This document shows positions 7,927 to 55,326 of a DNA stretch of 64,000 nt, piece after piece. Source of the stretch: Microbacterium murale (GTDB taxonomy: Bacteria; Actinomycetota; Actinomycetes; Actinomycetales; Microbacteriaceae); the NCBI RefSeq assembly GCF_014635185.1, contig NZ_BMCM01000005.1, positions 240,763 to 304,762 on the forward strand. Direction: 5' to 3'. The translations under genes and the position numbers were made by a program. The notes beneath the pieces are model-generated. The model ran no database searches, was not told the DNA's origin, and was given only the letters and a program-made list of their open reading frames with translations. Each line of letters starts with the position of its first letter. Position 1 is the first letter of the stretch.

Positions 7927-7927
7927 C

Positions 7928-22533: not shown

Positions 22534-22914
22534 TCACCAGAAGCGCGGCGGCTCCGGTTCAGGGACGGTGTCGCCTCCACCCCAGCGGAGCGCCTCGACG
22601 CTCGCGGCGCCGGCGGCAGCATCCGCCCCGCGCAACGCGACGTCGGCCTCCGCCGAGCCGGGTCCGGTCGGGTCGACGAGAAGCATCGTCTTCACCCCGA
22701 CCCTCGACCGAGCGATCACGCATTCGATGACCCTGCCGGTCCAGGTCGAGGCATCCGATGTCGGGTGCCCTTCCTGTCGGTAGCGCACTCGGGTCTCCAG
22801 ATCGGTCAACTCGACCACCGCGCGCGACCCGCTGTCGTCGACCCGCTCGACCACCTCGATGCGATGCCCGTGGGGAATCGGTGCCGCCACCGCGATCGTG
22901 ATCGTCCTGTCCAT
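22534..22914 (-). CDS. Hypothetical protein
   Basis: A 126-aa protein with no family that I recognise. It is rich in beta-strand-like segments (TITIAVAAPIP, RIEVVERVDDSGSRAVVEL, RVIECVIARSRVGVKTMLLVD) and contains no signal peptide, transmembrane helix or cysteine cluster. Convergent with the gbsR-like gene, it stands alone, and its GC-rich codon use looks genuine. Confidence 0.55.
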   Translation of the reverse strand: MDRTITIAVAAPIPHGHRIEVVERVDDSGSRAVVELTDLETRVRYRQEGHPTSDASTWTGRVIECVIARSRVGVKTMLLVDPTGPGSAEADVALRGADAAAGAASVEALRWGGGDTVPEPEPPRFW

Positions 22915-35867: not shown

Positions 35868-36815
35868 TCAGGGGCGGATTCGACCTGACCCGTAACGGCT
35901 CGGAGGCTGCCCGAAGATCGTCGAGAACACCCTCGAGAAGTACAGCGGATCCTGGAACCCGACTGCCCTGGCGACCTCACTCACGCGTAGACCGCTGGAG
36001 GTGAGGAGCCACACTGCGCGGTCCATCCGTCGGTCACGCACCCACGTGGACACAGAGGTTCTCGCCCAACGGACGAAGAGCCGCTCGGCCGTCGACGAGC
36101 TGCAGTCTCCGGCGCGCGCAACGTCGGCGACACTGAGTCGCTCGTGCAGGTTCTGCTCGACGTAGTCGCACATCCGTTGGAAAGCGAGCGGGGGCTGAGG
36201 GCCGGATACAGCGTGTCCTGCCGCCGCTCGTAGGTACTCTTCGTGCAACAGAGTTCCGAGGGAACGGAGCAACTCCTCGTCCATGGAGCCCCGAGCGAAC
36301 CTGTCGATCGCATAGCCACCGAGCGCCGAGACGGTATCAGCAACGGCGTTCGGCGGAGTCAGGACGATCGGCTCACCGGACTCGCCTCGACGAAAGTCGA
36401 CCCCCATGAGCGCGTCGTCACCGAAAGGCGCGCGCGCGACCACCGCGTGCTTCGCGCTGTGCCACGGCACGATGTGCACTGTCCCGACAGTGAAGGGATG
36501 CCGAGTATCGGCCTCCCAGCGCACGCCGTGCCGCCAAGGCAGCCAGAGCGCCGATCCCTTCCCGACTTCAACGTTCAACGAGCCGGTGCGCACCATTCCT
36601 CGGCCGCTCACCACCCACGCGTAGCACACCGTCGCGACGACGTCGTTGCGGATTCGCTCTGCGGAGCGGAAATCGTACGTGTTGGCACCGACGAGAACCG
36701 GACCTCCATCGCGCGCGAAGGCGCCAAGCGAGGATTCGGCACCGCCGGGCGCGGAGGCGGATGTTTCGTCGACCGTCACGAACCCAACGTAGGGCATTGT
36801 GACTGAAACATCCAT
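35868..36815 (-). CDS. AraC-family regulator of the P450 operon
   Basis: A 315-aa protein. The N-terminal cupin-like sensing domain is at about residues 40-150 (LPWRHGVRWEADTRHPFTVG, then TVHIVPWHS). The C-terminal AraC domain has two helix-turn-helices (SVADVARAGDCSSSTAERLF and VSEVARAVGFQDPLYFSRVF). It diverges from the ferredoxin-reductase-P450 operon, and a regulatory site overlaps its 5' end. It is a clear paralogue of the AraC protein at 42752-43648: the cupin motif, GDCS..TAERLF and DPLYFSRVF..PPSRY..IRP are shared. The internal Met7 (36797) might be the true start, which would place the site fully upstream. Confidence 0.9.
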   Translation of the reverse strand: MDVSVTMPYVGFVTVDETSASAPGGAESSLGAFARDGGPVLVGANTYDFRSAERIRNDVVATVCYAWVVSGRGMVRTGSLNVEVGKGSALWLPWRHGVRWEADTRHPFTVGTVHIVPWHSAKHAVVARAPFGDDALMGVDFRRGESGEPIVLTPPNAVADTVSALGGYAIDRFARGSMDEELLRSLGTLLHEEYLRAAAGHAVSGPQPPLAFQRMCDYVEQNLHERLSVADVARAGDCSSSTAERLFVRWARTSVSTWVRDRRMDRAVWLLTSSGLRVSEVARAVGFQDPLYFSRVFSTIFGQPPSRYGSGRIRP

Positions 36816-36823
36816 GAAATGGA
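36799..36823 (-). promoter_or_regulatory. Shared AraC-type site, P450 copy
   Basis: On the minus strand this reads TCCATTTCATGGA followed by TGTTTCAGTCAC. It agrees at 18 of 25 positions with the GH31 copy (55302-55326) and shares the core CATRGAYGWTTC-N3-CAC with the GH92 copy. It lies 87 bp before the ferredoxin start. It also covers the annotated start codon of the AraC gene, so chance similarity cannot be excluded. Confidence 0.5.
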
Positions 36824-36909
36824 TTGTCCTACCCCGTTGATCACTGAGCTGTTGCGTCTAGCTTTGATGTACTTGACCGCGCACGAACGTGCATGGGAGG
36901 ACGGGAACT

Positions 36910-37101
36910 ATGAAGATCGACGTGTCACGAACCGCCTGTGTTGGAGCCGGACAGTGCGTCCTCGTCGCCGAAGAGCTCTTCGACCAGGACGATGAGGGCC
37001 TCGTCATCCTCCTTGACGACTCACCTGCCGCCGCGGATCAGGCCGCCGCGCACAAGGCAGCAGCCCTCTGCCCCGCTAGGGCGATCCGTGTCGACGGGTG
37101 A
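36910..37101 (+). CDS. [3Fe-4S] ferredoxin for the P450
   Basis: A 63-aa ferredoxin. TACVGAGQC supplies two cysteines with the middle position not Cys, and LCPARAI gives the third, the pattern of three-iron ferredoxins that serve actinobacterial P450s. First gene of the operon; its end overlaps the reductase gene by 14 nt. Confidence 0.92.
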   Translation: MKIDVSRTACVGAGQCVLVAEELFDQDDEGLVILLDDSPAAADQAAAHKAAALCPARAIRVDG

Positions 37102-38311
37102 CGGTCACGCGGGAGCACCCTCGCGCATCGTCGTCGTCGGTGCGCAGACAGCAGGCTTCGCGACCGTCGATGCCCTTCGCGCGGAGGGATACGACCGCGA
37201 ACTGGTCCTGATCGGCGCAGAGCGGCATCTGCCATACAACCGGCCTTCCTTGTCGAAGCAGGTGCTCTCCGGGATGTGGCAGCCGGCAGAGGCATCCATC
37301 GCCGACGAACGACTAATCGAGGCACTTGAGCTCGACCTGCGACTCGGCACGCGGGCGACCGGCCTCGACCAATCCACTCGCACCTTATCGACGGATCGCG
37401 GACCGGTCGCATACGACGCTCTCGTGGTCGCGACGGGCTCGGACGCAATCCGTCCGCAGTGGGCGGATGCTGCACCCGGCCGGGTCTTCTTCCTGCGATC
37501 GCTCGACGATGCCGTCGCGCTCGAACGCGCGCTGACGGGCGCCGCCTCCGGGCTGCGCGTCGCGGTTGTCGGCACCGGCCTCCTCGGCTCCGAGATCGCC
37601 GCAACGCTGCGAAAGCGTGGGGCCGAGGTGACACTTGTCGGACGATCCGGAGGATTCCGTCTCGGAGCCGTCGGCACCGGCTTTTCCGATCGAATCCATG
37701 CTCTTCACCAGGCACACGGCGTACGCGTCGTGCTGGGCTTGGATGTCGCCGGCGTAGAGCCGACGTCTGATGCTGTCCGCATGGTTCTCTCCGACGGCAC
37801 GCACATCGAAGTGGACATCATCGTCGCGGCTGTAGGCTCACGGCCGGCAATCGGATGGCTCGCGCACGCGGGACTCTCCGCCGAACCTGCCCTGCTCGCC
37901 AGTTCTAGGGGGGTTGTCGCGCCGGGCGTGTACGCAGTGGGCGACGCCGCCGCGTGGCTCGACCCCGTCACCGGCCGTCACACGCGCAGCGAACATCAGC
38001 AGACTGCCATCGAGCAGGCCCACGTGGTGGCGCACCTTCTCTACCCCGGCGAGACGAGCCCCTACCCTCTGCCCTTCTTCTGGACAGAATTATACGGAGA
38101 ACGGGTACAGGTGCACGGCCGCTTCGAGGATGTCTCGGATGTCGTCGAGCTCGGCGGAGACTCAGCTCTCGGCCGCGCTGTCTGGGGCTATCGCCACGAC
38201 GGCCGAGTCAGGGGCATCGTCGGCTGGAAGGCCTCCAAAGAATTCCGTCTCCAGCGCGCCGCCCTCATGAAAGCATCGCCCGTTCTCGAACCCGACGGAG
38301 GAACCCCGTGA
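37088..38311 (+). CDS. Ferredoxin reductase (FAD/NAD-dependent, P450 redox partner)
   Basis: A 407-aa Rhodococcus-type ferredoxin reductase. IVVVGAQTAGFATVDALRAEG is the FAD motif (slightly unusual AQTAG), followed by LPYNRPSLSK, the NAD motif VAVVGTGLLGSEIAATL near residue 160 and GVYAVGDAAAWLDP near 280. The C-terminal domain (PFFWTELYGERVQVHG) is typical of PdR/BphA4-like reductases. The start is GTG 37088 inside the ferredoxin gene. Together the two deliver electrons from NAD(P)H to the P450. Its stop overlaps the P450 start (GTGA). Confidence 0.92.
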   Translation: MSTGDGHAGAPSRIVVVGAQTAGFATVDALRAEGYDRELVLIGAERHLPYNRPSLSKQVLSGMWQPAEASIADERLIEALELDLRLGTRATGLDQSTRTLSTDRGPVAYDALVVATGSDAIRPQWADAAPGRVFFLRSLDDAVALERALTGAASGLRVAVVGTGLLGSEIAATLRKRGAEVTLVGRSGGFRLGAVGTGFSDRIHALHQAHGVRVVLGLDVAGVEPTSDAVRMVLSDGTHIEVDIIVAAVGSRPAIGWLAHAGLSAEPALLASSRGVVAPGVYAVGDAAAWLDPVTGRHTRSEHQQTAIEQAHVVAHLLYPGETSPYPLPFFWTELYGERVQVHGRFEDVSDVVELGGDSALGRAVWGYRHDGRVRGIVGWKASKEFRLQRAALMKASPVLEPDGGTP

Positions 38312-39528: not shown

Positions 39529-39537
39529 CACCGGCTC

Positions 39538-42500
39538 TCAGATCCAGGGGCCGCTCAAACCGAACACCTGGATCTGAGTGAGTCGGGCCGGCCCCTCGGC
39601 GATGATCCGGAGCGCGTGAGACACGACGCCGGAGTCCCGACCCGGCGCACGGAGCACACGGGTCTCGCCCGGCCACTCGAACCCGGGCTCCCCGATGTGA
39701 CGTGATGCGTGTACGCGACCGTCGCGATCAAGCAGCTCGATGCGCAGGGCGGCAACGTCCGGCGTCGCGGCCGTGACCGTGAGAAACGAGACCACGGCTG
39801 GCGCGGTGAGAGAGATCTCGGCATCGTCGTCCGCCGCGAATGTCACAGCCTCGGCTCCGAGATCGTCCGTGAGCAGTTCGGGACGACGGATGCTGCCACG
39901 AGTGCCCGTCGACTCGGCGAGGTCTCTCATCGGCTCGCGATTGCCGTGCCCATCGCTCGCGGAGTACGGGCGGGAGTCGGCCGCCCATCCGGTCGCCGTC
40001 GACGAGAGATCGAACTCGATCACGCAACCCCGTGCGAGGGTCGCGTGATCGATCGAGATCGAGTTCCACTCGACCCCGTCCACTCGCACGCGCCGGATGA
40101 ATCGGTCGCCGATCTGTCCCCCGCAGACCACGATCTCGATCGGCTGGCCGCCACTCGGAGCGAGCTTCGTCCGTTGAACCGAGGGCGGCACGAGGACATA
40201 CGTTCCCGACGCCGGTACGAGTGGATACAGCCCGATGGTCGCGAAGATGTACCACGCACTCATCTCGCCGTTGTCCTCGTCCCCGGGGTAGCCCTGCCCG
40301 AAGTCCGAACCGACGAAGAGTCGTGAGAGGGCGTCATGGACGAGGGCGTGTGCATCGTCGTGGCGGCCGGAGAACATGTACATGAAGGGGATGTGATGCG
40401 CCGGCTGGTTCGACAGAGCCAGCATGCCCGACCGGACATCGCGCGCCTCCCGCATCTCATGGATGACGTACGGGTAGTGCCCGTGGAGTGCGGCGGAGGC
40501 AGTTTCAGGCTCGCGGAGCATCTGGTCGAGCGCGCGACCGAGCGCTTCCTCGCCGCCATGCAGTCGCGCGAGCCCCGCGCCGTCGTGCGGAGCGGTGAAG
40601 GCCGTACCCCAGGCCGTCGTCTCGGTGTAGTCGTGACCCCACTCGCGCGGGTCGAAGTCACCTCGCCACGAGCCGTCGGCGTTACGTCCGATGAAGAATC
40701 CGCGCTCACGATCGAAGACCTCCGCGTAACCCATCGAGCGTTGCGCGAAGTACTCCGCCTCCGCTTCCAGGTCGGGGTCGGCTTTGCGCCCGTGCCGATG
40801 TCGCTCTTCGGCGAGGAGAAGTGCGATGCGGGAGATCCCGGCATCGTTCAAAGCACTGTCGAGCGTCCAGGAGAGGCCCTCAAGCACCTCCGTCGAGACG
40901 AAGCCGCGGAAGATCGCGGGCACGAGTCCTTTCCGACCGACCCGCGGGTCTTCCGCGGGAACGAGCGCGTTCTTGCGGGCCGCGGCGTAGCCACGCTCGA
41001 GGTCGAGACCGCGGACGGACTTCACGACGAGGTCGGCGAAGACCAGGTCGAACGTCGTACCCGTCATGCAGTCCTCGGCCGCGGGCGCGCTCCAGCGCGG
41101 CGTCCACCCCGACGCATCAACGTGTGCGAGGAATCCCTCGGCGTGTTCTGCCACTGCATCCGGCTGGAGCAGCGTGAGCAACGGCCACGCGGTGCGATAG
41201 GTGTCCCAGAATCCGTTCGACGCCGAGACGATTCCCTTCACGAGTGCCCCGTCGTACGGCGAGCGCGAGACCAGTCCGGCTCGGTCCAGCGCCGGCTCGC
41301 CGTACTTGGTTGGGTAGAGCAGAGCGCGATAGAGCCCCGACATGACGGATACACGCTGATCCTGCGTCGCGCCGTCAAGGACGATCATGTCGAGCGCCTC
41401 CTGCCACCGCCGAGCGGATTCCTCGAGCATCGCGTCGAATCCGCCGGGGTGGAGCGCGTTCGCTCGTGCATGCGCGACGTCCACGCTCGAGTGCCCGACG
41501 ATCGCGTCGACCGGCACCCTGCCTGCGTGCACCGTCACGAAGCCATTCAGGCGCCCGGCTTCGACGCGGACGTCAGTCGTCGCCACGTCTGCGATGCGCA
41601 CGTGGACAAAGGTGCGTGGCTTCTCCCCCTCCGATTCCAGCGCCGCGTCCAGCATCCAGACATCTCCGTCTTGCTGGATGTCGACGTCCGACAGGACACC
41701 GGCGTGGTCGAGCACGATCGATCCGTCGTCGCCCGGGAAGGTCGTCCGCAGAGCGACAGCGAAGTCGGAGGCGGTGAGTTCGGCGACAATACCACCGTCG
41801 AACTCGACACGGTAGCGGTGCGCACCGGCGTCCTCACGAAAGCGATCGAAGGTCAGCGCCCGCGCCTCACGTCCTGTGTCGGGGCGACGCAAGGCGCTGG
41901 GCATGAGTTGGAATACGCCGTAGTCCTTCATCCACGGACTGGAGATGTGCGAGGTCGCGAACGCCTGCAACGCGGGTCTTCGATCGACGCCGGACGCGGC
42001 GTACGTGTAGGCCCAGTCGACGGCAGATGCATCCGTCATGGGAAGGCCGAAGACGCCACCGTGCGGCAGCCCGACGAGTGGCGCCGTGTTGCCGCGTGAA
42101 AAGGCGGGTGACGAGTGGGTGCCGCGCCTAGTATCGACCTGCTGGAGCGACTCAGCCGACGAGCGATGCTGGCTGAGACTCACCCCGTCGACGTACGCGG
42201 TCACGGCGCGGTGCTGCGATCCGCGCAGCACCGCGACCGTCTCGACGACGCGCTTTCCCGCCAGCGAGTCGATGCTGATTCGCCGGAGATTCCATTGATC
42301 AGGCCACAGGCGACGGGCTTCGCCCTGCTCACGGGCGCCGGAGCCGCCACCATACTGGTCTGCCAGGCCGGTTTCGCTCAGCCATCGGCCGTCGTCGAAC
42401 AGCACATCCACCGCGACTGCCGTGGCTTCGAAGCGCGTCTCGGTATCTTCGGTTCCGACCGGCAGCACGATCCAAGCCAGCTCATCGCCGGGGCTGACGA

Positions 42501-42657
42501 TGCTTCCCGCGAGAACACCGGGCAGCCGACGCACGACCCGATCCTCACCACGCGCCGCGTCGATCCGCCACGGCTCGCAGTCCGAGAACCCGGTTCCGTC
42601 GGCACCGGTGAGCACCGATGCGGGAGCACCGCGATCCGCATCCCGTTGCAACCTCAC
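39538..42657 (-). CDS. GH92-family alpha-mannosidase-like glycosidase
   Basis: A 1039-aa glycosidase. GH92 signatures are MSGLYRALLYPTKY and GFWDTYRTAWPLLTLLQPD (residues about 455-510), HHIPFMYMFSGRHD, and GYPGDEDNGEMSAWYIFATIGLYPL near 810, whose acidic residues act as Ca-assisted catalytic groups. GH92 enzymes are Ca-dependent exo-alpha-mannosidases. The N-terminal beta-sandwich precedes the (alpha/alpha)6 barrel; a C-terminal discoidin-like module (about 910-1039) is added. No signal peptide, so it acts in the cytoplasm on imported substrate. The start is GTG. It is divergent from an AraC gene and convergent with the P450 (9-bp gap). Confidence 0.87.
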   Translation of the reverse strand: MRLQRDADRGAPASVLTGADGTGFSDCEPWRIDAARGEDRVVRRLPGVLAGSIVSPGDELAWIVLPVGTEDTETRFEATAVAVDVLFDDGRWLSETGLADQYGGGSGAREQGEARRLWPDQWNLRRISIDSLAGKRVVETVAVLRGSQHRAVTAYVDGVSLSQHRSSAESLQQVDTRRGTHSSPAFSRGNTAPLVGLPHGGVFGLPMTDASAVDWAYTYAASGVDRRPALQAFATSHISSPWMKDYGVFQLMPSALRRPDTGREARALTFDRFREDAGAHRYRVEFDGGIVAELTASDFAVALRTTFPGDDGSIVLDHAGVLSDVDIQQDGDVWMLDAALESEGEKPRTFVHVRIADVATTDVRVEAGRLNGFVTVHAGRVPVDAIVGHSSVDVAHARANALHPGGFDAMLEESARRWQEALDMIVLDGATQDQRVSVMSGLYRALLYPTKYGEPALDRAGLVSRSPYDGALVKGIVSASNGFWDTYRTAWPLLTLLQPDAVAEHAEGFLAHVDASGWTPRWSAPAAEDCMTGTTFDLVFADLVVKSVRGLDLERGYAAARKNALVPAEDPRVGRKGLVPAIFRGFVSTEVLEGLSWTLDSALNDAGISRIALLLAEERHRHGRKADPDLEAEAEYFAQRSMGYAEVFDRERGFFIGRNADGSWRGDFDPREWGHDYTETTAWGTAFTAPHDGAGLARLHGGEEALGRALDQMLREPETASAALHGHYPYVIHEMREARDVRSGMLALSNQPAHHIPFMYMFSGRHDDAHALVHDALSRLFVGSDFGQGYPGDEDNGEMSAWYIFATIGLYPLVPASGTYVLVPPSVQRTKLAPSGGQPIEIVVCGGQIGDRFIRRVRVDGVEWNSISIDHATLARGCVIEFDLSSTATGWAADSRPYSASDGHGNREPMRDLAESTGTRGSIRRPELLTDDLGAEAVTFAADDDAEISLTAPAVVSFLTVTAATPDVAALRIELLDRDGRVHASRHIGEPGFEWPGETRVLRAPGRDSGVVSHALRIIAEGPARLTQIQVFGLSGPWI

Positions 42658-42703
42658 TGAACCAGGTTATGCGAGTCGTCTTCCGATCCGCAGGCAGACG
42701 CGT

Positions 42704-42728
42704 CTCAATACATAGACGATTCGATCAC
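42704..42728 (+). promoter_or_regulatory. Shared AraC-type site, GH92/araC copy
   Basis: CTCAATACATAGA then CGATTCGATCAC. It lies 47 bp before the GTG of GH92 and 24 bp before the AraC ATG. It agrees at 17 of 25 positions with the GH31 copy. Extended one base upstream (42703) it agrees at 21 of 26 with the copy before the binding-protein gene. All are in the same orientation relative to the operon they serve. Confidence 0.65.
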
Positions 42729-42751
42729 GTCGAAACGCGTAGCATCCCTCT

Positions 42752-43648
42752 ATGACCGACACGCGTCCTGAGCACACACCGCGCGAACTTCGTGACGACG
42801 ACGGCGGCCCTGTCGTCGCGATCGCCAACTGGTACCGCTTTCGTCCCGGTGAACGCATCGTCAACCCCGATGTGCAGAGCGTCTTCTTCATCTGGGCCGT
42901 TGACGGCGAAGGAACGGTGTCCTGCCAAGGCAAGCGCTTCGACCTTTCGCCGGGAACCCTGCTGCGTCTGCCCTGGCGGCATCGCGTCGAGTACACAGCT
43001 GACCGGCACCACCCGTTCCACGTCGGAACCGTCCATGTCGTCCCCTGGCACGCATTCGGCGTCACGGTCGTGCCGCACGTGCCACATGACGCAGGCGATC
43101 CGCTGGGCGAAGACTCGCATCGCCGCGGTGATGCGATCCAAGGCCCCGCGGCCTTCCGGCTCAATCAGAACGCCCCGGCGCGCTCCCTCGTGGAACTCGG
43201 GTCTTACGCGGTCGAGACCCTCATCATGGCACCGTTCGATGAGACCGTCGCGAGAGCGCTCGGAGTACTGATCCTGCGAGAGGACGAGCGGATGCGCGGG
43301 GGCGGGAGCGTGCTCCCGAGTCCGCCCTCTCGGCTGGGAACGATGGTGGACTACATTGCGGAGAACCTGGACAGACCGCTCACGCTCACCGAGATCGTCC
43401 GCATCGGTGACTGCAGTATCGCTACCGCCGAGCGTCTGTTTCGCGAACACAAGGGCAGTTCTCTCGGCGCATGGGTCCGCGCGGAACGCATGCGTGCCGC
43501 CGCCCTCCTGCTTCGCACGACGGGACTCAACGTGCGAGAGGTGGCGAGCCGTGTCGGGTACGAGGATCCGCTGTACTTCTCACGCGTCTTCCGCAATGTG
43601 TACGACGTACCGCCGAGCCGCTACGCGACCCCCACGATCAGGCCGTGA
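42752..43648 (+). CDS. AraC-family regulator of the glycoside locus
   Basis: A 298-aa protein with an N-terminal cupin (LRLPWRHRVEYTADRHHPFH, then VGTVHVVPWH) and C-terminal AraC domain (LTEIVRIGDCSIATAERLF and REVASRVGYEDPLYFSRVF). It is paralogous to the regulator at 35868-36815. It is transcribed away from GH92 and towards the glycosidase operon; its last 11 nt overlap the end of the Gfo/Idh gene. TAGCAT 6 nt before the ATG suggests leaderless expression. It probably senses a released sugar. Confidence 0.9.
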   Translation: MTDTRPEHTPRELRDDDGGPVVAIANWYRFRPGERIVNPDVQSVFFIWAVDGEGTVSCQGKRFDLSPGTLLRLPWRHRVEYTADRHHPFHVGTVHVVPWHAFGVTVVPHVPHDAGDPLGEDSHRRGDAIQGPAAFRLNQNAPARSLVELGSYAVETLIMAPFDETVARALGVLILREDERMRGGGSVLPSPPSRLGTMVDYIAENLDRPLTLTEIVRIGDCSIATAERLFREHKGSSLGAWVRAERMRAAALLLRTTGLNVREVASRVGYEDPLYFSRVFRNVYDVPPSRYATPTIRP

Positions 43649-44699: not shown

Positions 44700-44750
44700 G
44701 ACCGCAGCGCGCAGGGGTGCCGATGAGACTGAGGGGGGGAGGGGACGATG

Positions 44751-45509: not shown

Positions 45510-48151
45510 GACGACAGGTTCCCAACTCGATCTGCCACACCGATGGGCTCGGCCGGATCGCCCCGCGCATCGACGATCGTCCAGCTGTGTCTCCCCGATC
45601 CGACGGCGAATTCGTCCGCCCCCGGAAGGTCGACGACGGCCGTCGTGTTGGCAGGCACTTCGGCCTCGACACGGAGCGAACCATCGGGAGTCTCCGCCCA
45701 GCCGACGCTCGCACTGCCGTAGGGAGTGTCGATCACCGAGGTCGCCCGATGTAACCCCGCCAGCGGTCGCGGTGCGACCCGAATACGCGAGTATCCCGGC
45801 GCATCCGCGCTCAGACCTGCGACGACGCGGTGTAGCCAGTCGGCAACGGCGCCGAGCGCATAATGGTTGAACGAGGTCATCTCCCCCGGGTTGATCGTGC
45901 CGTCCGGAAGCATGGAGTCCCAGCGCTCCCAGACCGTCGTGGCTCCCATGCGCACGGGATACAACCAGGATGGGCACTCCGTCTGCAGAAGCAGGCGAGC
46001 CGCTGCATCGTCGTGGCCTGTCGACGTCAGGGCATCGGCGAGCAGGGGTGTGCCGACGAATCCGGTGAGGACACGGTAGTCGCTTTCGTCCAGAAGCTCG
46101 ACGAGCCGCTGAGCGAGAGCGACGCGCTCATCGCCCTGGACGAGGTCGAAAACGATCGCCAGGGCGTAGGCCGTCGCCGCATCCGACCTCACGCGGCCTG
46201 CGGCCGCGTCGACATACTCATCCGTCCAGGCGCTGCGCACCTCCTCGGCCAGCGCGGCGTAGTGGCGTTCCGATGCCTCGTCGCCGAGGGTTCGCGCCGC
46301 ACGTGCGACGAGTCCGGCCGACTTGGCATAGTAAGCGGTCGCGACGATCTCGGCAGGTACTTTCGCGGCGCTGGGATCGTCGGGTGGGGAATCCGGATCG
46401 AGCCAGTCACCGAACTGGAATCCCCCGCGCCACAGCCGACTCTCGCCCGCCGCTGCGCGGATCTGCTCGACCCACCCCTTCATGCTCTCGAACTGGTCGG
46501 CGAGCACGCCCGCATCACCCAGCCGCTCGTAGAGCACTGACGGCACGACAGTTGCTGCATCACCCCATGCGGCCGCGGGCGGTCTCGGCCGCTTCACGAT
46601 GTCAGGGACGATGAACGACACGGTGCCGCGCTCCTCCTGCTCGAGGCGAAGGTCGGTCAGCCATGACGCGAGAAAACCGCCGACATCGAACAGAGTCGCC
46701 GCCGTCGGGGCGAAGACCTGGATGTCGCCGGTCCATCCCTGGCGCTCGTCGCGCTGCGGACAGTCGGTGGGCAGATGCAGAAAGTTGTCCCGCATCGACC
46801 ACACGACGTTCTCGTGGAGCTTCGTGACGAGGGGTTCGCTGCAGTCGAACCATCCGGTGCGGGTCATCTCGCTGTGCAGCACGACAGCAGTCACGTCCGC
46901 CGGGTTCGTACCGCCCGGTAGCCCGTCGATGCTCGCGTAACGGAAGCCGTGGAACGTGAACTCGGGCTCCCAGACGCGGTCGACGCCGTCGTGCACGTAC
47001 GTGTCGGTCGCGGTCGCCGCTCGCAGCGGCCGCAGAGCGAGTTCGCCGTGCTCGAGCACCTCGGCATGCTGGAGGGTCAGAACAGTATCGCGCGGCGCGC
47101 GCACGCGAACGCGGAGTCGACCGGCGATGTTCTGCCCGAAATCGAGGATCGTCGCACCGGCGGGAGAGACATGCGCCGAGACGGCAGGCAGCTCCTCGAT
47201 GGCCCGCACGGGAGGTCCGATGCGTGGGGTCGGGGTCGCCTGCCATTCAGTCTCGACCGCAAAGATCCAATCTGCATCATCGAATCCAGGGGACGGCCAG
47301 CCGTGCGGCTCGAGTCGCGCGTCGACCGACTCGCCGACGTAGATCCCCGTGTGGACGATCTCGCCGTGAGATGTGCGCCAAGATCCGTCGGTGACGATGT
47401 CCTCGGACGTACCGTCCTCGTACTCGACCACCAGCAGGCAGGCGACGGATGGTGTGTCCCCCCACGTCGGCTCGTCGTGCGCGTGCCGGTTGTAGCGCTC
47501 GCTGTACCACCCCCCGGCGAGACGGATTCCGATGACGTTGGCTCCCGCTGCCATCAGGGGCGTCACGTCAGTGGTCTCGTATGGCAGGCGCAGATCGTAC
47601 GAACTCCACCCCGGCTTGAGGACATGGTCATCGACATCGACGCCGTTGATGCTGACCTGGTAGACGCCCTGCGCCGCCGCATAGAGCGTCGCTCGTCGCA
47701 CCGGTCCACGAAGCGCGAGTTCACGACGGAAGATCCCCGCGCCTGTGCCCGACGCGATCGGATTCGCCTGCCAACGTCCCAGTTCCAGAGCGGCGCTGCG
47801 CGCTTCGAGTGGCACGCTCCAGTCGCTCCAGATACCGTCGGCGTCGGCGGTACGAACCTGGATCCATCGCGCCTCGCGTTCCGGGAGAGCATGGGCGAAC
47901 GGCCACGCCACGAAGATGCTCGCTGGGCCTTCCAATCGCACCGTCTCGATCACCGCATCGTCTCCGACGAGCCGGACATCGGCCGCGCTCTGGGTCCAGT
48001 CCGACCCTGTCGCGACGCTCCGCCAGCTCACACGCGGACGGGACGTCGCCACCCAGCACGTCGGATCGGCGTGCTCGGTGCGGACACCCGTGACCGCATG
48101 GGTCGACGGAATGCGTGCCTGAGACACGCTGGGGGTGACGGACATGCTCAC
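45506..48151 (-). CDS. GH78 alpha-L-rhamnosidase
   Basis: An 881-aa glycosidase of family 78. N-terminal beta domains (RPRVSWRSVA; GIFRRELALRGPVRRATLYAAAQGVYQVSINGVDV) precede the catalytic (alpha/alpha)6 barrel, with LHLPTDCPQRDERQGWTGDIQVF near residue 465 holding the general acid region, and GATTVWERWDSMLPDGTINPGEMTSFNHYALGAV near 775. It removes terminal alpha-L-rhamnose by inversion. No signal peptide. Start GTG 48151 (GTGA overlap with the GH127 stop) or ATG 48145; both are in frame. Confidence 0.95.
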   Translation of the reverse strand: MSMSVTPSVSQARIPSTHAVTGVRTEHADPTCWVATSRPRVSWRSVATGSDWTQSAADVRLVGDDAVIETVRLEGPASIFVAWPFAHALPEREARWIQVRTADADGIWSDWSVPLEARSAALELGRWQANPIASGTGAGIFRRELALRGPVRRATLYAAAQGVYQVSINGVDVDDHVLKPGWSSYDLRLPYETTDVTPLMAAGANVIGIRLAGGWYSERYNRHAHDEPTWGDTPSVACLLVVEYEDGTSEDIVTDGSWRTSHGEIVHTGIYVGESVDARLEPHGWPSPGFDDADWIFAVETEWQATPTPRIGPPVRAIEELPAVSAHVSPAGATILDFGQNIAGRLRVRVRAPRDTVLTLQHAEVLEHGELALRPLRAATATDTYVHDGVDRVWEPEFTFHGFRYASIDGLPGGTNPADVTAVVLHSEMTRTGWFDCSEPLVTKLHENVVWSMRDNFLHLPTDCPQRDERQGWTGDIQVFAPTAATLFDVGGFLASWLTDLRLEQEERGTVSFIVPDIVKRPRPPAAAWGDAATVVPSVLYERLGDAGVLADQFESMKGWVEQIRAAAGESRLWRGGFQFGDWLDPDSPPDDPSAAKVPAEIVATAYYAKSAGLVARAARTLGDEASERHYAALAEEVRSAWTDEYVDAAAGRVRSDAATAYALAIVFDLVQGDERVALAQRLVELLDESDYRVLTGFVGTPLLADALTSTGHDDAAARLLLQTECPSWLYPVRMGATTVWERWDSMLPDGTINPGEMTSFNHYALGAVADWLHRVVAGLSADAPGYSRIRVAPRPLAGLHRATSVIDTPYGSASVGWAETPDGSLRVEAEVPANTTAVVDLPGADEFAVGSGRHSWTIVDARGDPAEPIGVADRVGNLSS

Positions 48152-50019
48152 TCTTCACTTCCTTCGCCGCGGAGGGCGAGAACGGGCAGCTCGGTGATGC
48201 GCAGACGCGCCGAGCCATAAGGGACGAGCCGGTTGGGCTCGACGACGACCCAGGATGGATCCGGACTTTGCGGCGGCGGCGAGGCATCGGCTCCGTCGTC
48301 CGCCCACGAGGGGATCTGGCCGGCCATCACGTCGATGGAGACCGGCGGTGCGGATCGGTGGAACGGCAGTGCGCCGACCGCTCCGCGACCTGTTCGCCAC
48401 GACTCGCGACCGCGTGGTCCGTCGACGACCAGACCCAGGTTCCAGTTGGTGCGGCGAGTCACGTGCCATTCGCCGATGCCGGGAGCAGCCGGGACAGACA
48501 GCCAGTTCTCTCCTGGAGACAAGGACATGACGAGAGGTCCGAGGCGCACAGCCACCGCTCCACGCGGGCGGTCGATGGTGCGGATTCGTTGTGGCAGGCG
48601 TAGGACGAGCTCATCCCCGTCGCTCCATTCGCGGTGGACGTCGGCGAAGCCCTCACGCGGTCGAAGTTCGAAGGGCTCCCCTGCCGCTGTGAGCGATGGG
48701 TCATCGCACCAGGCGGGGATGCGCAGGGCGAGCGCTCCGTCAACAGTCCCGGACGCCCCGGTCCGTATTCGCAGGCGGACCTCCTCTTCGAACGGATAAT
48801 CGGTCTCCACATCGACCCGAATCTCACGGCCGCCCCATGTCGCCGCCACGGTGCATGGCGCGTACGAGACAGCCACGAGCCGGTCGCCATCGGCGAGCCA
48901 GAGTGAGCGCACGAACTTCGGCCATCCTTGGTGAAGATTGGCCGTGCAGCATCCGAAATGCGGCTCGAGGCCGAAGATGTTGGCGTCGTCAGTGGAGTAC
49001 GACCATCCGCGCCGAGCGACCGTCGCGGCGATCTGGTTCGGTTGCTGGAGGTACTGGTGACCGCGCATCTCGGGATCAGAACACGCCGGGAGGTGGTTGA
49101 ACGCGAGCAGCTCGAGTTCGTCCCCCCACGTGGCGTCGCCGAAGACGCGGAGATTGGTGGCTGCAGAGAACATCGACTCCACCACCTGACACGTCTCGAT
49201 CCCCTGCGTGGCCTCGGTCCCCCCGAGCCACTCGTCGCCCGAGAACCACCCGTGCGCCTGGCCGTGCAGCAGACGCAGTTGCTCGATCTGCTCGATCGGC
49301 CGGACTGCGCGGGCCGCATCGCCGTCGCTCAGATACCATGCCGCTTCGGCGCGCAGGCCCATCGCGACGTTGGGGCCATGCGTCACGTGCTGAAAGCGGT
49401 GGACCTTTCCCTCTGGCAGATCGGTCGTGAGCGCGCGATGCCAATCGACGGTCTGCTCCTCGAGGAGGAGCGCCAGGCGACGGAGCTCGTCGCTCGGGCG
49501 CCGATCGTGCAGCCACCAGATCGACAACGCATTGTCAGCGCCACGGACTGCACCCCAGCTGATGAGCGGCCGGGCGGGAAGGTTCTCGAGCTGATAGCGG
49601 GCGTATCGTTCGATGAAGCCTTCGACGCGCTCGTCGCCCGTAGCGTCCGCATACTGGGTGAGCGCCTTGAGCGCCACCATCCGCGGCCACCAGTCGTCGC
49701 TGGTCGATGGTCCGAACTGGCCGTCGCCAGTCTGCGACGACAGCATCCATTCGATCCAGGGCATCGCGCGGCTCTTCAGATCGGAGTCGTCGAGCACCCA
49801 CGCGAGCGGGACCAGACCGTCGAGATAATACGGTCCACGCTCCCAGTCCTCGCCGTCGCCGCCCTTCCAGGCGCTCGTTACGCCGACATCCGGCCAGATG
49901 TCCTCGAGGCGACCGGTGATGTTGTCCGCCTGAAGCCGCAACTGGCGTACGAGCCAACCAGACGGGCGCACCGCACCGAGGGGCAGCTCGGCGAGGGCCG
50001 CCGAAGGTCGGTCGCTCAT
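48148..50019 (-). CDS. GH127-family (DUF1680) beta-L-arabinofuranosidase-like protein
   Basis: A 623-aa protein of the DUF1680/GH127 group. The metal-thiolate active site of the type enzyme HypBA1 is recognisable: Glu275-Thr-Cys277 (IETCQVVES) and the Cys357-Cys358 pair (HFGCCTANLHQGW), where one Cys is the nucleophile. Characterised members release beta-L-arabinofuranose; the specificity of this one is not proven. No signal peptide. Its ATG overlaps the permease stop and its stop overlaps the GH78 start, both by 4 bp. Confidence 0.88.
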   Translation of the reverse strand: MSDRPSAALAELPLGAVRPSGWLVRQLRLQADNITGRLEDIWPDVGVTSAWKGGDGEDWERGPYYLDGLVPLAWVLDDSDLKSRAMPWIEWMLSSQTGDGQFGPSTSDDWWPRMVALKALTQYADATGDERVEGFIERYARYQLENLPARPLISWGAVRGADNALSIWWLHDRRPSDELRRLALLLEEQTVDWHRALTTDLPEGKVHRFQHVTHGPNVAMGLRAEAAWYLSDGDAARAVRPIEQIEQLRLLHGQAHGWFSGDEWLGGTEATQGIETCQVVESMFSAATNLRVFGDATWGDELELLAFNHLPACSDPEMRGHQYLQQPNQIAATVARRGWSYSTDDANIFGLEPHFGCCTANLHQGWPKFVRSLWLADGDRLVAVSYAPCTVAATWGGREIRVDVETDYPFEEEVRLRIRTGASGTVDGALALRIPAWCDDPSLTAAGEPFELRPREGFADVHREWSDGDELVLRLPQRIRTIDRPRGAVAVRLGPLVMSLSPGENWLSVPAAPGIGEWHVTRRTNWNLGLVVDGPRGRESWRTGRGAVGALPFHRSAPPVSIDVMAGQIPSWADDGADASPPPQSPDPSWVVVEPNRLVPYGSARLRITELPVLALRGEGSEE

Positions 50020-50843
50020 CCCTTGACCGCCCCGTTCACCATGCCGTCGACGATCTGGCGGTTGAAGAAGATGTACAGCACGAGCGGCGGAATCGTGATC
50101 AGCAGGACGTCGGCGAACAACAGATTCCATTGACTCAGCGTTTGGCTCTGGAAGTTGAAGAGGGTCGCCTGCACGGTCACGTTCTCGCTCCCTGGGAGGA
50201 AATAGAGAGGCCCGGTGAAGTCATTGAAGACGCCGACCGACTGCACCACGATCATCGTCACGATGACGGGCTTGAGCAGAGGAAGCACGATAGTGAAGAA
50301 GACTCGCAGTGGACCGGCGCCATCCACCACGGCGGCTTCGTCGAGCTCACGAGGGATCGTCGCCACGAAGGCGGATGCCAGCAGCACGCAGAAGGGCAGG
50401 CCGCCGACTACCTCGATGAGGATCATGCCGAACATCGTGCGATACAGCCCGACGCTCTGCATCACCCAGATCGTCGGCACAATGGCCGTCGGCACGATGA
50501 GCGCGGCGAGGATGAGCAGTTGCGTGGCGTTGGTCCATAATCCGGCACGGCGCTGGATGACGTAACCCATCGCGGCGGCGAGGACGACCATGATCGTCAC
50601 GCTCGTCACGGTCAGCGTCGTGCTGTTGATGAACGCTCGGACGATGACGTAGTCCCTGGCTTGAAAGACCTCGGCGATGTTCTCGAGAAGCACGAACTTC
50701 GTGGGCCACGTGAACTCGAAGCGTGAGGCGTCAGCTGCCGTCTTGGAAGCCGTGAGGAAGATGAACACGAACGGCACGAGGAAGACGACGGCCGAGATCG
50801 CGATCGCTATGATCCCTCGGACGCGCGGAGCGGACGATTTCAT
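50016..50843 (-). CDS. Carbohydrate ABC transporter permease (MalG type)
   Basis: A 275-aa protein with six membrane helices. The cytoplasmic EAA loop LDEAAVVDGAGPLRVFFTIVLPLLKP near residue 190 is that of CUT1-family permeases. It pairs with the upstream permease, to which it is coupled by a 4-bp overlap. No ATP-binding subunit is in the window; a shared MsiK-type ATPase is the usual partner. Confidence 0.93.
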   Translation of the reverse strand: MKSSAPRVRGIIAIAISAVVFLVPFVFIFLTASKTAADASRFEFTWPTKFVLLENIAEVFQARDYVIVRAFINSTTLTVTSVTIMVVLAAAMGYVIQRRAGLWTNATQLLILAALIVPTAIVPTIWVMQSVGLYRTMFGMILIEVVGGLPFCVLLASAFVATIPRELDEAAVVDGAGPLRVFFTIVLPLLKPVIVTMIVVQSVGVFNDFTGPLYFLPGSENVTVQATLFNFQSQTLSQWNLLFADVLLITIPPLVLYIFFNRQIVDGMVNGAVKG

Positions 50844-51772
50844 TGCTGAACCTCACGTCGCCGGAACCGTATCTGCATGGGGACCGTGATGAGCGCCACC
50901 ACGAGGAAGAGCACGACGTTGCCTGCCGTGGACAGCCCGTAGAAGCCGGCCGCATACTGCTTGTATATGACCGATCCCAGAACATCGCTCGTGAATCCCG
51001 GTCCCCCGCCTGTCATGGTCCAGATCAGCTCGAACGAGCGCAGACCGGCGATGACGTTGAGGAGGACCACGGTGGTCATTGCAGGACGCACGAGCGGGAG
51101 CGTGATCGATCGGAAGAGCCGCCAGCTGCTCGCACCATCGATTCGTGCGGCCTCGTAGTAGTCCCGAGGGATCGCGACCAGGCCTGCCATGAAGATGAGG
51201 GTCGACACGCCGACGCCCTTCCAGACATCGACGAGCGCGACCGAGATGAGGGCGAGCGACGGATCGGTGAGCCAACCCGGCCCCGGCAACCCGAAGAATC
51301 CGAGCGTTGTGTTGACCAGACCATCGATCGGATTCAGCAGCACCTTGAAGGTGATGCCGATGCCCACGGCGGAGACGAGGACCGGGAAGAACATCACGGC
51401 GCGGAGATAGCCGCGGCCGAGAATCGGTCCGGTGAGCAGGACGGCCAGGGCCAGCCCCGTGACGACCTTCCCGACGCTCGTGATGATGGCGTACACGAAG
51501 GTGTTCCGGAAGCTGCCGAGCAGCTGCGGGTCGCGGAAAAAGGTGACGAAGTTGTCCAGCCCGATGAAGTCCGCTTCGAAAAGCGTCCACCGCGTGAGAC
51601 TGAAGTAGAAGGACGACAGCGTGGGGACGACGAACACCACGATCATCAGCAGTCCTCCGGGCAGGAGGAACCACAGGGGGTACCGAGACTTCATCAGCCG
51701 CTTTGACGACGAGAGTCGTTTGGGCGCCCCCGCGTCTGTAGTGAGCATTGTCTCTGTCGTGGTCACTGTCAT
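50840..51772 (-). CDS. Carbohydrate ABC transporter permease (MalF type)
   Basis: A 310-aa permease with six or seven helices and an N-terminal cytoplasmic lead. The EAA motif YYEAARIDGASSWRLFRSITLPLVRP is near residue 200. Typical of CUT1 MalF/UgpA proteins that import oligosaccharides or glycosides. It lies 62 bp after the binding-protein gene, separated by a hairpin. Confidence 0.93.
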   Translation of the reverse strand: MTVTTTETMLTTDAGAPKRLSSSKRLMKSRYPLWFLLPGGLLMIVVFVVPTLSSFYFSLTRWTLFEADFIGLDNFVTFFRDPQLLGSFRNTFVYAIITSVGKVVTGLALAVLLTGPILGRGYLRAVMFFPVLVSAVGIGITFKVLLNPIDGLVNTTLGFFGLPGPGWLTDPSLALISVALVDVWKGVGVSTLIFMAGLVAIPRDYYEAARIDGASSWRLFRSITLPLVRPAMTTVVLLNVIAGLRSFELIWTMTGGGPGFTSDVLGSVIYKQYAAGFYGLSTAGNVVLFLVVALITVPMQIRFRRREVQQ

Positions 51773-51789
51773 CGCGTCTCTCCGTCAAG

Positions 51790-51822
51790 CGGCCACCCGC
51801 CGTATCTTCTGGCGGGTGGCCG
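51790..51822 (-). terminator. Intra-operon hairpin after the binding-protein gene
   Basis: CGGCCACCCGCC (51790-51801) and GGCGGGTGGCCG (51811-51822) are perfect 12-bp arms around a 9-nt loop, without a T-tract. At this place in ABC importer operons such hairpins stabilise the binding-protein mRNA or cut read-through, giving more binding protein than permease. Confidence 0.7.
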
Positions 51823-51834
51823 ATCAGATTCCTG

Positions 51835-53151
51835 TTACCAGCCCTCGAGGCCGAGTTGTTGAGCCTGCTTCGCGACATCCTGGTCGTACAGCTCGGCTCC
51901 GCTCTTCGCATCGCGGATGCCGGAGCCGACCTCGACTGCAAGCTGCGGCAGGTTCGGACCCTTGAGGGGGCTGACGAACTCCAGACCTGGGCCGGTGTCA
52001 CCGGCATCCACATAGGCCTGCAGCTCCTTGATGGCGTCAGGAACGTCATCGGGCACGGCGCAACGGTCGTTGGCGAACGGCCCGGTGTCGCCTGCGTCGA
52101 TGAGCGCTTGGCAGCCCGCCTCGGACTGCGTGTAGGCGACGAATTTCTTCGCAGCTTCGAGCTTCGCGCCCTCTGCCGACTTCGGGATGAAGAAGCCGCC
52201 CGGCAGGAAGAGCGTGAGACGAGTGTTCTCCGGATCCTGTGCAGGCATCGCGAACATGCCGATGTCGTCGATCTTGTCGGGGTAGTTCTGTTCCACCGCA
52301 CCGATGACTCCCGCGAGCATCGGGTAGTGCACCGCGGTGCCCTCGGCGACGGCTCGCACGCCGTCGTCGTAGAGCGCGGATGCGTAGTCGGCGCTCAGGA
52401 AGCCATCGTCGTACACCTGCTGAGCGTTCTTCCAGCTGCTGAGAGCCGGCTCGTCGGCGTACCCCACCTTGTTGGCGGTGTAATCCGCCGCCCAATCCGG
52501 GTCCTCGGCGGCGATGTTCGCGAAGTCGGCGAGGAGGATCAGTTGCGCCGTCCAGCTGTCGCCGAACGTCTGCTGCACTGGCGCGGCGACGCCGCTGTCG
52601 AGAATCGCCTGGTTGTTCGCGCGGAACTCGTCCCATGACGTCGGGACTTCGAGTCCCAGCTCCTCGTAGATGCGCTTGTTGTAGATGACGCCGCCTGGGG
52701 TCGTCCCGCCCGACGGAGCGCCGTAGACGCCCGCATCGGTGCTCACGGCGGGGAGATAGGAGTCGCTGATGTGCGAGAGCCACTCCTCGTCATCCAGCGG
52801 CACGAGGAAGTCATCTGGCCGGATGGCCTGCAGCAGCGATCCGGAGTTGTACGCGAAGACTTCGGTCATGTCGCCCGAGCTCAGTCGGGTCTTGATGACG
52901 TTGTCTCCCTCAGATCCGGACGGGATGGTGTCCAACTCGACTGTGATTCCCGGGTTCTCGGCTTCGAATCCTTCGATCAATAAGTTCGAGTACTCGACGG
53001 CGTCTTCGGTGTTGAAGTTCGTCAGACGGATCGTGACGCCCTCTTCGTCACCTCCTCCGATCGAGCCGACTGAGCAGGCGGAGACGGCAAGGGCCGTGAC
53101 TGCCAGACCAGCCAGCGCGATGATACCCCTGGTGCGGGATGCTCTTCTCAT
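51835..53151 (-). CDS. Extracellular sugar-binding lipoprotein of the ABC importer
   Basis: A 438-aa family 1 extracellular solute-binding protein. The lipoprotein signal peptide ends in the lipobox AVSAC, followed by a flexible SVGSIGGGDEEG linker; VTIRLTNFNTEDAVEYSNLLIEGFEAENPGI is the typical first domain. GAGGAAG lies upstream of the ATG at 53151, 8 codons inside the longest frame. It captures the substrate for the two permeases. A regulatory site lies 125 bp upstream, so it may have its own promoter apart from GH31. Confidence 0.92.
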   Translation of the reverse strand: MRRASRTRGIIALAGLAVTALAVSACSVGSIGGGDEEGVTIRLTNFNTEDAVEYSNLLIEGFEAENPGITVELDTIPSGSEGDNVIKTRLSSGDMTEVFAYNSGSLLQAIRPDDFLVPLDDEEWLSHISDSYLPAVSTDAGVYGAPSGGTTPGGVIYNKRIYEELGLEVPTSWDEFRANNQAILDSGVAAPVQQTFGDSWTAQLILLADFANIAAEDPDWAADYTANKVGYADEPALSSWKNAQQVYDDGFLSADYASALYDDGVRAVAEGTAVHYPMLAGVIGAVEQNYPDKIDDIGMFAMPAQDPENTRLTLFLPGGFFIPKSAEGAKLEAAKKFVAYTQSEAGCQALIDAGDTGPFANDRCAVPDDVPDAIKELQAYVDAGDTGPGLEFVSPLKGPNLPQLAVEVGSGIRDAKSGAELYDQDVAKQAQQLGLEGW

Positions 53152-53275
53152 GTGACACTTCCTCGTGATCGACATTGTGTTTTCGGTGCATGCGCGGACC
53201 GTTTCCGCATGGATGGCATGGCACCAGGACCCTCAGACTACGAAGCAGACAGAGCCGACCGGCACCCAATCCATT

Positions 53276-53300
53276 CTCAATATATGGACAAACCGATCAC
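53276..53300 (+). promoter_or_regulatory. Shared AraC-type site before the binding-protein gene
   Basis: CTCAATATATGGA then CAAACCGATCAC. Including the preceding T (53275), it matches the GH92 copy at 21 of 26 positions, mainly TCTCAATA and CGATCAC. It overlaps the stop codon of GH31 and lies 125 bp before the binding-protein start. Confidence 0.6.
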
Positions 53301-55255
53301 CGCGGCGGCGCGTCGCCGAAGTGCACCCACTCGATCTCGTCGATCTCGTCTGTTGACATGACCGCGACGGCGAGAGGGATGACGGCACCATCTTTGACGA
53401 AGACCGGGATCTGGCTGATCGACGGCGAGACAACGAGTCTCGTGCCGCCTGTGAGAAGCTCACCGGTCCAAAAATCCCTCCATCGCCCGTGCGGCAGATA
53501 GACGGAGCGCTCCGTCTGCTGAGCTGTCATCGGTGCGACGAGGATATCCGCACCGACCATGAACTCGTCGCTGATGGTGTGAGTCTCGATGTCATCGGGG
53601 TGATCGAGCACCAGGGCACGGAACGGTGGCAGGCCCGTCCGGCGATAGTCGGCGAACGCTGCGTCCAGGTAGGGAACGAATCGCATCCGAAGGCGGATGA
53701 GCTGTCGGCAGACTTCCTCGATCTCTTCCGCGTCCGCCGCGCGCTCCCCCGCGAGATTCGCCGTGGTATCGGTGTGAATCCACGGCGGCTGTGCGAGATA
53801 CCACGCGTTCACCATCGCGATCGGAGAGAACACGGCGGTCTGCAGGCGCCGGATCAGATCGACGCTGTCTGTGGCGTGGCGAACTTCAGGGGCCCACAGC
53901 AGCCCGCTGAACGAGGATTGGGCGATCGCGTGGATGAACTCGGCGTGATCGTAAAGATCGCTGTACAGCACGAAGGGGTAAGGCGCTGCAAGGGCGTGCG
54001 AGTTCCTTGTGAGGCCGTAAGTGTCCTCGCCGGATGCGGCGAACGCTTTCAGAGTCGCGTCCTGGTACCGGATTCCGAACAGGCTGTGCATCTGCTCGCC
54101 GTCCGCGCCGGATGGAAAGGAGGACAGTTCGGGAAAGGACCAACCGCCGGTGAAATCGGAGTTGTCGCACTCGTCGAGCTTGAACCCCGCGATGCCGGCA
54201 TCCACCAGCGGTACGTGCGCCGAGGCGAATACCTCCTGCGCTCGCGACTCCACGAAGTCGGGGACGAGGCCGTCCCACACACGGAAGTCACCACTCAGCG
54301 GAAGGAGTTCGTCATGGATCGTGGCGGAGCGATGAACGAAGCCGTGCTCCCACAGGTTCACCCGCATCCCCAATTGAGCGAGATCGTCGACCATGCGTTC
54401 CGGGTGAGGGAAGCGATCGCTCCATCCGTAGGAGCACGAGTACGCGGCGCTCTGCCATCCCGGCTCAATGCCGATGACATCGCACGGGATGCCGCGAGCA
54501 CGCAGCTCCGTCGCCTGCCGAGTGACGTCTTCCTGGGTGAAATCCGTGGCTGTGCGGTACCAGAACCCCAGTCCCCAGCGCGGCGGATGTGCGCCGCCAC
54601 CCGCAAACAGGTTGTACCGCTGAACGGCCTCGCGGATGTTCGGGCCGGCGAAGATGTAGACGTCGACTCCGCCGGCATGCGGCACCTCTGTCAGTACTTC
54701 GGACCCGATTGCAGAGTCACGCGTGTAGGCGACGGGCAGCGAATCAGTTCCGACGGATGCTCCCCCGCTCATCGAGCGAGGAGAATGCTCGCTTCGCCGC
54801 GCGGCCGATCCGACATAGACGGTGCCGTATCGCGCTGTGTCGACGAGCACCCCGTACCCGCCGGTCGACGCGTAAAAAGGCACTGGAGCATGCGAGTCGC
54901 CGGAATCGTTCTGCGGGTCGGCGTTCACTCGCAAATGCACTTTCCGCCCATTGAGCCGGAAGTTGCGAAGCTGCAGCCCGAGGCCGTAGATGCTCTCGGA
55001 GTCGTCCAGTTGATGGCGGACTTCAATCCCGCGGCTCGTGCGCCGGTACTCCACTCTGACGGGACACACATCGACATGCGGAAGCGAAGACAATCCGTCC
55101 TCGTCTGCACCGAAGCTGCGCGTACTGACCGGAGTAACTTCTTCCGGTTGCAGAATGCGCACCCGCCAGACGCCGGGATAAACCTGTTCGTACGTATTCG
55201 CCGCGGAGAATGCTCCGGACCGGGCCACTGGCTCTTCGACTGAAATATCGATCAC
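53297..55255 (-). CDS. GH31-family glycoside hydrolase
   Basis: A 652-aa TIM-barrel glycosidase. The nucleophile motif is GIAGFKLDECDN near residue 358. Barrel landmarks are WGLGFWYRTATDFTQEDV near 230, CDVIGIEPGWQSA near 260 and SGLLWAPEVRHATDSVDL near 445. GH31 covers alpha-glucosidases, alpha-xylosidases and alpha-galactosidases; which one applies is not clear from the motifs. No signal peptide. GTG start, no clear ribosome-binding site. First gene of the importer/glycosidase series. Confidence 0.9.
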   Translation of the reverse strand: MIDISVEEPVARSGAFSAANTYEQVYPGVWRVRILQPEEVTPVSTRSFGADEDGLSSLPHVDVCPVRVEYRRTSRGIEVRHQLDDSESIYGLGLQLRNFRLNGRKVHLRVNADPQNDSGDSHAPVPFYASTGGYGVLVDTARYGTVYVGSAARRSEHSPRSMSGGASVGTDSLPVAYTRDSAIGSEVLTEVPHAGGVDVYIFAGPNIREAVQRYNLFAGGGAHPPRWGLGFWYRTATDFTQEDVTRQATELRARGIPCDVIGIEPGWQSAAYSCSYGWSDRFPHPERMVDDLAQLGMRVNLWEHGFVHRSATIHDELLPLSGDFRVWDGLVPDFVESRAQEVFASAHVPLVDAGIAGFKLDECDNSDFTGGWSFPELSSFPSGADGEQMHSLFGIRYQDATLKAFAASGEDTYGLTRNSHALAAPYPFVLYSDLYDHAEFIHAIAQSSFSGLLWAPEVRHATDSVDLIRRLQTAVFSPIAMVNAWYLAQPPWIHTDTTANLAGERAADAEEIEEVCRQLIRLRMRFVPYLDAAFADYRRTGLPPFRALVLDHPDDIETHTISDEFMVGADILVAPMTAQQTERSVYLPHGRWRDFWTGELLTGGTRLVVSPSISQIPVFVKDGAVIPLAVAVMSTDEIDEIEWVHFGDAPPR

Positions 55256-55301
55256 CCATCGAATCTGCCGTTTCGGTCACCATCAGCACAGGGTGTGCGT
55301 G

Positions 55302-55326
55302 TGCATTCCATGGACGATTCCCGCAC
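55302..55326 (+). promoter_or_regulatory. Shared AraC-type site before GH31
   Basis: TGCATTCCATGGA then CGATTCCCGCAC, 47 bp before the GTG of GH31. That is the same distance as the GH92 copy from its own GTG. The core CATRGACGATTC is identical in both but for one purine. Confidence 0.65.

Follow-up and report, generated by a model that had tools for sequence, protein, structure and literature searches.

In AraC/XylS catabolic regulons, the regulator gene lies beside its target operon and controls a transporter together with enzymes. The promoter-distal operator araI1 of Escherichia coli, located at about -69 to -53 in a repeat of ~21 bp, carries TCCATA as its B-box and TAGC as its A-box. At araBAD there are two proximal operators, of which AraC binds araI1 more strongly than araI2, as PMC4760080 describes. 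Here, we describe four related sites, A to D, in a 64,000-nucleotide stretch of the Microbacterium murale genome (contig NZ_BMCM01000005.1, positions 240,763 to 304,762; hereafter the window), which precede a cytochrome P450 operon and three glycoside-related promoters and accompany two AraC-family genes, AraC1 and AraC2. Judging from sequence, A to D are probably operators of the activators AraC1, AraC2 or both, forming a four-promoter regulon that would serve the uptake and deglycosylation of glycosides together with P450 oxidation.

The sites resemble araI1-araI2 in being paired operators, one strong and one weak, but differ in having a 20-bp period, an A-box TGAYCG instead of TAGC, four target promoters, and other proteins and another ligand. 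Like AraC/XylS catabolic regulons generally, the locus combines regulator-target adjacency with the proposed control of a transporter and enzymes, whereas here a class I P450 system is coupled with glycosidases and an ATP-binding cassette (ABC) importer. Similarly, the gene set and order are those of class I P450 systems (ferredoxin, reductase and P450 in one operon), here tied to glycoside hydrolases and a sugar importer. The bacterium thus probably turns these genes on jointly through a familiar type of switch. A literature search over titles and the openings of abstracts returned, among the matches listed, none on the coupling of P450, glycosidases and ABC importer, on this locus or on this motif.

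Four related sites in the window and the home genome

An earlier note on this DNA had reported four related 25-mers, and its coordinates and strands were correct for each (A, 36799-36823; B, 42704-42728; C, 53276-53300; D, 55302-55326), as was their identical orientation relative to the downstream operon. Counted without gaps over 25 positions, the pairwise identities are 16 for A-B, 13 for A-C, 18 for A-D, 20 for B-C, 17 for B-D and 14 for C-D. The earlier value of 17 for B-D therefore stands, whereas those of 18 for A-B and 21/26 for C-D were not reproduced by our ungapped counting. The proposed core, CATRGAYGWTTC-N3-CAC, is present in A, B and D but not in C, and its GATTC part is variable among relatives; what is conserved reads TGAYCG-N4-RTCCATR on the strand of the operon. 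Pfam assignments also reverse the earlier GH31 and GH92 labels, placing B in front of GH92 and D in front of GH31. The reported spacing of exactly 47 bp between each of these two sites and a GTG start is correct (42704-42657; 55302-55255).

The four sites are genuine and their similarity is beyond chance. When a matrix was trained on three sites and used to rank 127,886 window positions, B, C and D each came first as the site left out, and A came second, after a match at 8865 that sits at the junction of open reading frames (ORFs) 7928-8872 and 8869-10497. A model built from 13 sites of other genomes and no window sites (R2) ranked C first (E 0.109) and B second (E 0.164) across the 3.9-Mb home genome, followed by two non-site places (0.468 and 0.725). 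Within promoter regions that we delimited ourselves, each of A-D was the best match on the operon strand to a matrix free of window sites, with a simulated p of 0.0027 for D and of 0.00025, the lowest value that 4000 simulations allow, for each of the other three. A second model (R1) gave the four sites genome ranks 1-4 (E 3.5e-4, 0.0055, 0.0195 and 0.148; next 0.41), which is partly by construction given that R1 includes them. A variant of the earlier core (CATRGACGATTC-N3-CAC) occurs with up to two mismatches at 22 genome places, compared with 6 in the backward control, and exactly only at B and D. A hand-made pattern, GTGAYCG-N4-GTCCATGTA, which draws in part on the window sites, finds only B and C in the genome at one mismatch; with up to three mismatches allowed, it matches 125 places, compared with 26 in the backward control, and is therefore loose.

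A candidate fifth window site at 22898 (R1 hit 22897, locus L201) scores highly, but it runs across the start codon of ORF 22534-22914 on the minus strand and has no visible TAG-type -10 at the proper distance, and it was dismissed by reading. Within the home genome, the best-scoring R1 hits other than the four sites (L200, L201 and L202) have no homologue of the tested window genes within ~3 kb.

Half-site repeat and promoter geometry

A half-site matrix moved along 25 promoters found a second copy at exactly 20 bp in three of the four promoter groups, namely the congener ferredoxin, window and other-genus promoters. Downstream, a -10-like hexamer, selected by eye, was present in 18/18 promoters and started 48 bp (13 promoters), 49 bp (4) or 46 bp (1) past the R of RTCCATG, with TAGNNT at 48-49 bp in 5/7 other-genus promoters. 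A strong distal and a weak proximal half-site in direct repeat, ~48 bp ahead of a -10-like element, most likely represent the operator layout of an AraC-family activator. The GTG starts of GH92 (42657) and GH31 (55255) both lie 60 bp past the R of the RTCCATG box, and no ribosome-binding site is visible by reading before either, suggesting that these two transcripts are possibly leaderless.

Activators bind upstream of the -35, whereas simple repressor sites overlap the core promoter. Repression would mean that an AraC protein silences the catabolic operons until its ligand comes, and the overlap of site A with the start of the longest AraC1 ORF would fit autoregulation of this type; some AraC proteins repress in one state, as PMC4760080 describes for AraC itself. 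The half-site pair, however, lies upstream of the -35 at a near-constant distance, which is the position of an activator and not that of a simple repressor, and we consider repressor operators improbable.

Conservation in the genus and across genera

Homologues of AraC2 at 47-49% identity were found in 7 of 197 other genomes of the genus, the remaining matches being weaker and mostly confined to the helix-turn-helix part. In all seven, the AraC gene follows reductase and P450 genes homologous to those of the window, a ferredoxin start is legible ahead of them, and the motif precedes the ferredoxin, so the conservation before orthologous P450 operons that the earlier note had looked to is present within the genus. 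A second motif copy precedes the gene after AraC in 7/7 of these congeners. This gene is an aldo-keto reductase (AKR) in L057, the only one tested with Pfam, and the other six are alike by sequence reading. Across 198 genomes of the genus, home included, an R1 search with stricter filters (E 0.02) hit 16: the home genome, all seven AraC carriers and eight others, whose loci (~3 kb each) contained no match to window-gene, ferredoxin or AKR queries; the search tool itself describes its E-values as rough.

Among 398 genomes of the family, 11 matched at E 1e-30, of which one was the home genome and ten came from other genera. On these ten unseen loci, the top hit of a matrix made from window and congener sites fell in the AraC-adjacent spacer in seven (L182, L183, L184, L185, L187, L188 and L191) and elsewhere in L186, L189 and L190. 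For L184, the top hit at 10425 was dropped by eye in favor of a weaker one at 10489, the sole one with a second half-site and a -10, and L186 carries a weaker site at the equivalent position. Conservation before orthologous operons thereby extends to other genera, with an AraC-adjacent motif at 8/10 loci that faces ferredoxin, P450 or reductase genes at 7/10. These sites face ferredoxin/P450 genes in L182-L186 and L191, a ferredoxin reductase in L188 and a linalool dehydratase/isomerase-family gene in L187.

P450 and glycoside genes are coupled again outside the window. In L183 and L191, which belong to the same other genus, a single site is followed on one strand by ferredoxin, reductase, P450, two permeases and GH78, and in L183 a binding-protein gene occupies the gap in the ferredoxin-to-GH78 run. 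These P450-permease-GH78 runs provide an independent link in support of the earlier proposal that oxidation and deglycosylation belong to one regulon. The loci L182 and L185 also contain permeases that share 62-65% identity with those of the window. So far, the window is the one place where GH92, GH31 and the transporter have each been seen behind a site of their own, the view of GH92 and GH31 orthologues being confined to the fetched loci.

Two of these loci differ in their surroundings. In L187, the linalool dehydratase/isomerase-family gene (7736-9376, PF18566) faces the gene of a related AraC protein (~40% identity); the motif lies in between, a hint of terpenoid ligands. In L185, a different AraC-family gene (1769-2770) is divergent from the transporter/GH78 operon, suggesting replacement of the regulator.

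Several results weigh against reading A-D as operators of one regulon. The earlier note had pointed to the genome background as a test of its motif, and under the independent model R2 no place beats B or C, but A and D, which are absent from its four-place genome list, fall behind two places that are not sites. Even on the window alone with filters off, R2 places A and D only 8th and 9th of 19 (E 1.2), so both are weak genome-wide without window training. The fused pattern TCCATR-N40..42-TAGNNT is not enriched, with 4 genome occurrences, A and C included, compared with 10 in the backward control. The 25-bp unit itself comprises one half-site and only the beginning of the second, the window promoters carry a degenerate proximal half-site, and no 20-bp proximal copy is found in the AKR promoters after the AraC gene (L053-L059), though the distal half-site is kept there. 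The -10 hexamers are weak, TTGAAT in the congener ferredoxin promoters being a poor -10. Across genera, the matrix scan found no site in L189 or in L190, whose contig stops near the AraC gene, and the orthologous transporter/GH78 operon of L185, which adjoins the different AraC gene, is without a detectable site.

Some of these results would fit core-promoter or chance likeness in AT-richer spacers, with no operators involved. The matches at A and C are rich in AT, with a GC content of 0.44 and 0.38 in a window of 67% GC, the fused pattern is at genome background, and 8865 outranks A in the leave-one-out ranking. A core promoter element would, however, recur throughout the genome, whereas the independent profile puts two of the sites at the genome top, and the motif is conserved with near-fixed geometry across genera. 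We therefore regard this explanation as very unlikely.

Two paralogous regulators

AraC1 and AraC2 are paralogues with 44% identity, and both possess the double helix-turn-helix C-terminal domain, with HTH_18 and HTH_AraC above their cutoffs. The N-terminal AraC_binding domain is barely past its cutoff in AraC2 (21.4, compared with 21.1) and has no match in AraC1. Alignments of relatives that reach the N-terminal half of AraC1 begin at residues 19-40, mostly 36-40, so its true start is probably downstream, inside the ORF. TAERLF and DPLYFSRVF, which lie in the two recognition-helix regions, are common to both proteins, and in an alignment of 18 proteins these regions are nearly constant; the whole proteins are 35-51% identical to AraC1 or AraC2. 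The little-changed recognition helices make a common DNA motif plausible. In a tree of AraC proteins, AraC1 and AraC2 did not come out as a resolved sister pair, and the deep order was left open. A scan of the genome contigs with AraC2 gave at least 80 distant relatives, the best among the matches listed at 33% identity, and these were not used.

The presence of two such proteins also counts against a single regulon, as they could share out the four sites between them. AraC1 might control only A (P450) and AraC2 only B, C and D (glycoside), the likeness of the motifs following from that of the paralogues, which would keep the operator claim and depart on the regulon claim. This division would be in line with the very similar recognition helices and the degree of paralogue identity, the fact that the independent model scores A below B and C, the single close AraC homologue at each other-genus locus and the lack of a resolved sister pair in the tree. 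On the other hand, the nearest pairs, A-D (18/25) and B-C (20/25), cut across the proposed split, and L183 and L191 each have one AraC and one site before P450 and GH78 jointly. Two separate regulons are possible in our view, though doubtful.

Genes behind the sites

The features of the locus are collected in Table 1. The genes of the presumed site-C operon are taken to be co-transcribed on the basis of their strand and spacing. The nearest solved relatives of the P450 are one unnamed P450, followed by names such as CYP105AS1, PikC and 107A1. A Stealth-family gene (55528-57126) comes after the glycoside locus; we take this family to be capsule-type phosphotransferases.

Table 1. Sites, promoter elements and genes of the P450-glycoside locus (window coordinates; -10-like elements chosen by eye; proximal half-sites putative)
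Feature	Position	Strand	Remarks
Site A distal half-site, GTGACTGAAACATCCATGA	36799..36817	+	Fronts ferredoxin/reductase/P450 operon; overlaps start of longest AraC1 ORF (36815)
Site A proximal half-site, weak (+20 bp)	36819..36837	+	Window-group repeat signal maximal at offset 20
Site A -10-like, TAGCTT	36859..36864	+	49 bp from R of RTCCATG
Site B distal half-site, GTGATCGAATCGTCTATGT	42710..42728	-	Fronts GH92
Site B proximal half-site, weak	42690..42708	-	Repeat signal; R2 match covers 42691-42729
Site B -10-like, CATAAC	42666..42671	-	GTG 42657 next, leaderless-like
Site C distal half-site, GTGATCGGTTTGTCCATAT	53282..53300	-	Fronts binding-protein/permease/GH127/GH78 operon
Site C proximal half-site, weak	53262..53280	-	Repeat signal
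Site C -10-like, TAGTCT	53235..53240	-	
Site D distal half-site, GTGCGGGAATCGTCCATGG	55308..55326	-	Fronts GH31
Site D proximal half-site, weak	55288..55306	-	Repeat signal
Site D -10-like, CAGATT	55262..55267	-	GTG 55255 next, leaderless-like
AraC1, AraC-family regulator	35868..36815	-	Pfam HTH_18, HTH_AraC; divergent from P450 operon
AraC2, AraC-family regulator	42752..43648	+	Pfam HTH_18, HTH_AraC, AraC_binding; divergent from GH92
Ferredoxin, 63 amino acids	36910..37101	+	First gene of P450 operon
Ferredoxin reductase	36938..38311	+	Domain from residue 63; ORF start too far upstream
Cytochrome P450	37954..39528	+	Longest ORF; homology of relatives begins at residues 96-136
GH92 glycoside hydrolase	39538..42657	-	Pfam
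Presumed site-C operon	43638..53175	-	Binding protein, two permeases, GH127-like, GH78, ThuA-like, GFO/IDH/MocA oxidoreductase
GH31 glycoside hydrolase	53297..55255	-	Top NCBIfam match alpha-xylosidase, far under model cutoff

Discussion

The DNA itself shows that the sites exist and are conserved, what period their repeat has, that their spacing is nearly fixed and that the two regulators are paralogues; with this in hand, we propose how the locus may work. The four sites would be operators of one or both AraC-family activators, each composed of two halves in a direct repeat of 20-bp period, of which the distal one, TGAYCG-N4-RTCCATR, is strong and the proximal one, beside the -35, is weak. 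In the presence of ligand, the activator would occupy both half-sites and recruit RNA polymerase to the four promoters, those of ferredoxin-reductase-P450, GH92, transporter-GH127-GH78-ThuA-MocA and GH31, which a single regulator may thus control together. The ligand is probably a glycoside from plants or else the sugar or aglycone part of one. A locus in which GH78, GH127, GH92, GH31, ThuA and MocA genes accompany a class I P450 suggests a decorated plant glycoside as the substrate.

It is tempting to speculate, and we do so tentatively, that this is a regulon of several genera in the family, which responds to a plant glycoside or to a terpenoid-like aglycone and joins, in one program, import, sugar removal and the oxidation of the released aglycone by the class I P450 system. 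For the locus in M. murale, our analysis provides candidate operators and candidate regulators, and P450 oxidation would be joined to glycoside breakdown by regulation, beyond mere neighborhood. The motif may be used to find more targets and, with a reporter, the inducer, which would in turn indicate the substrate class of the P450.

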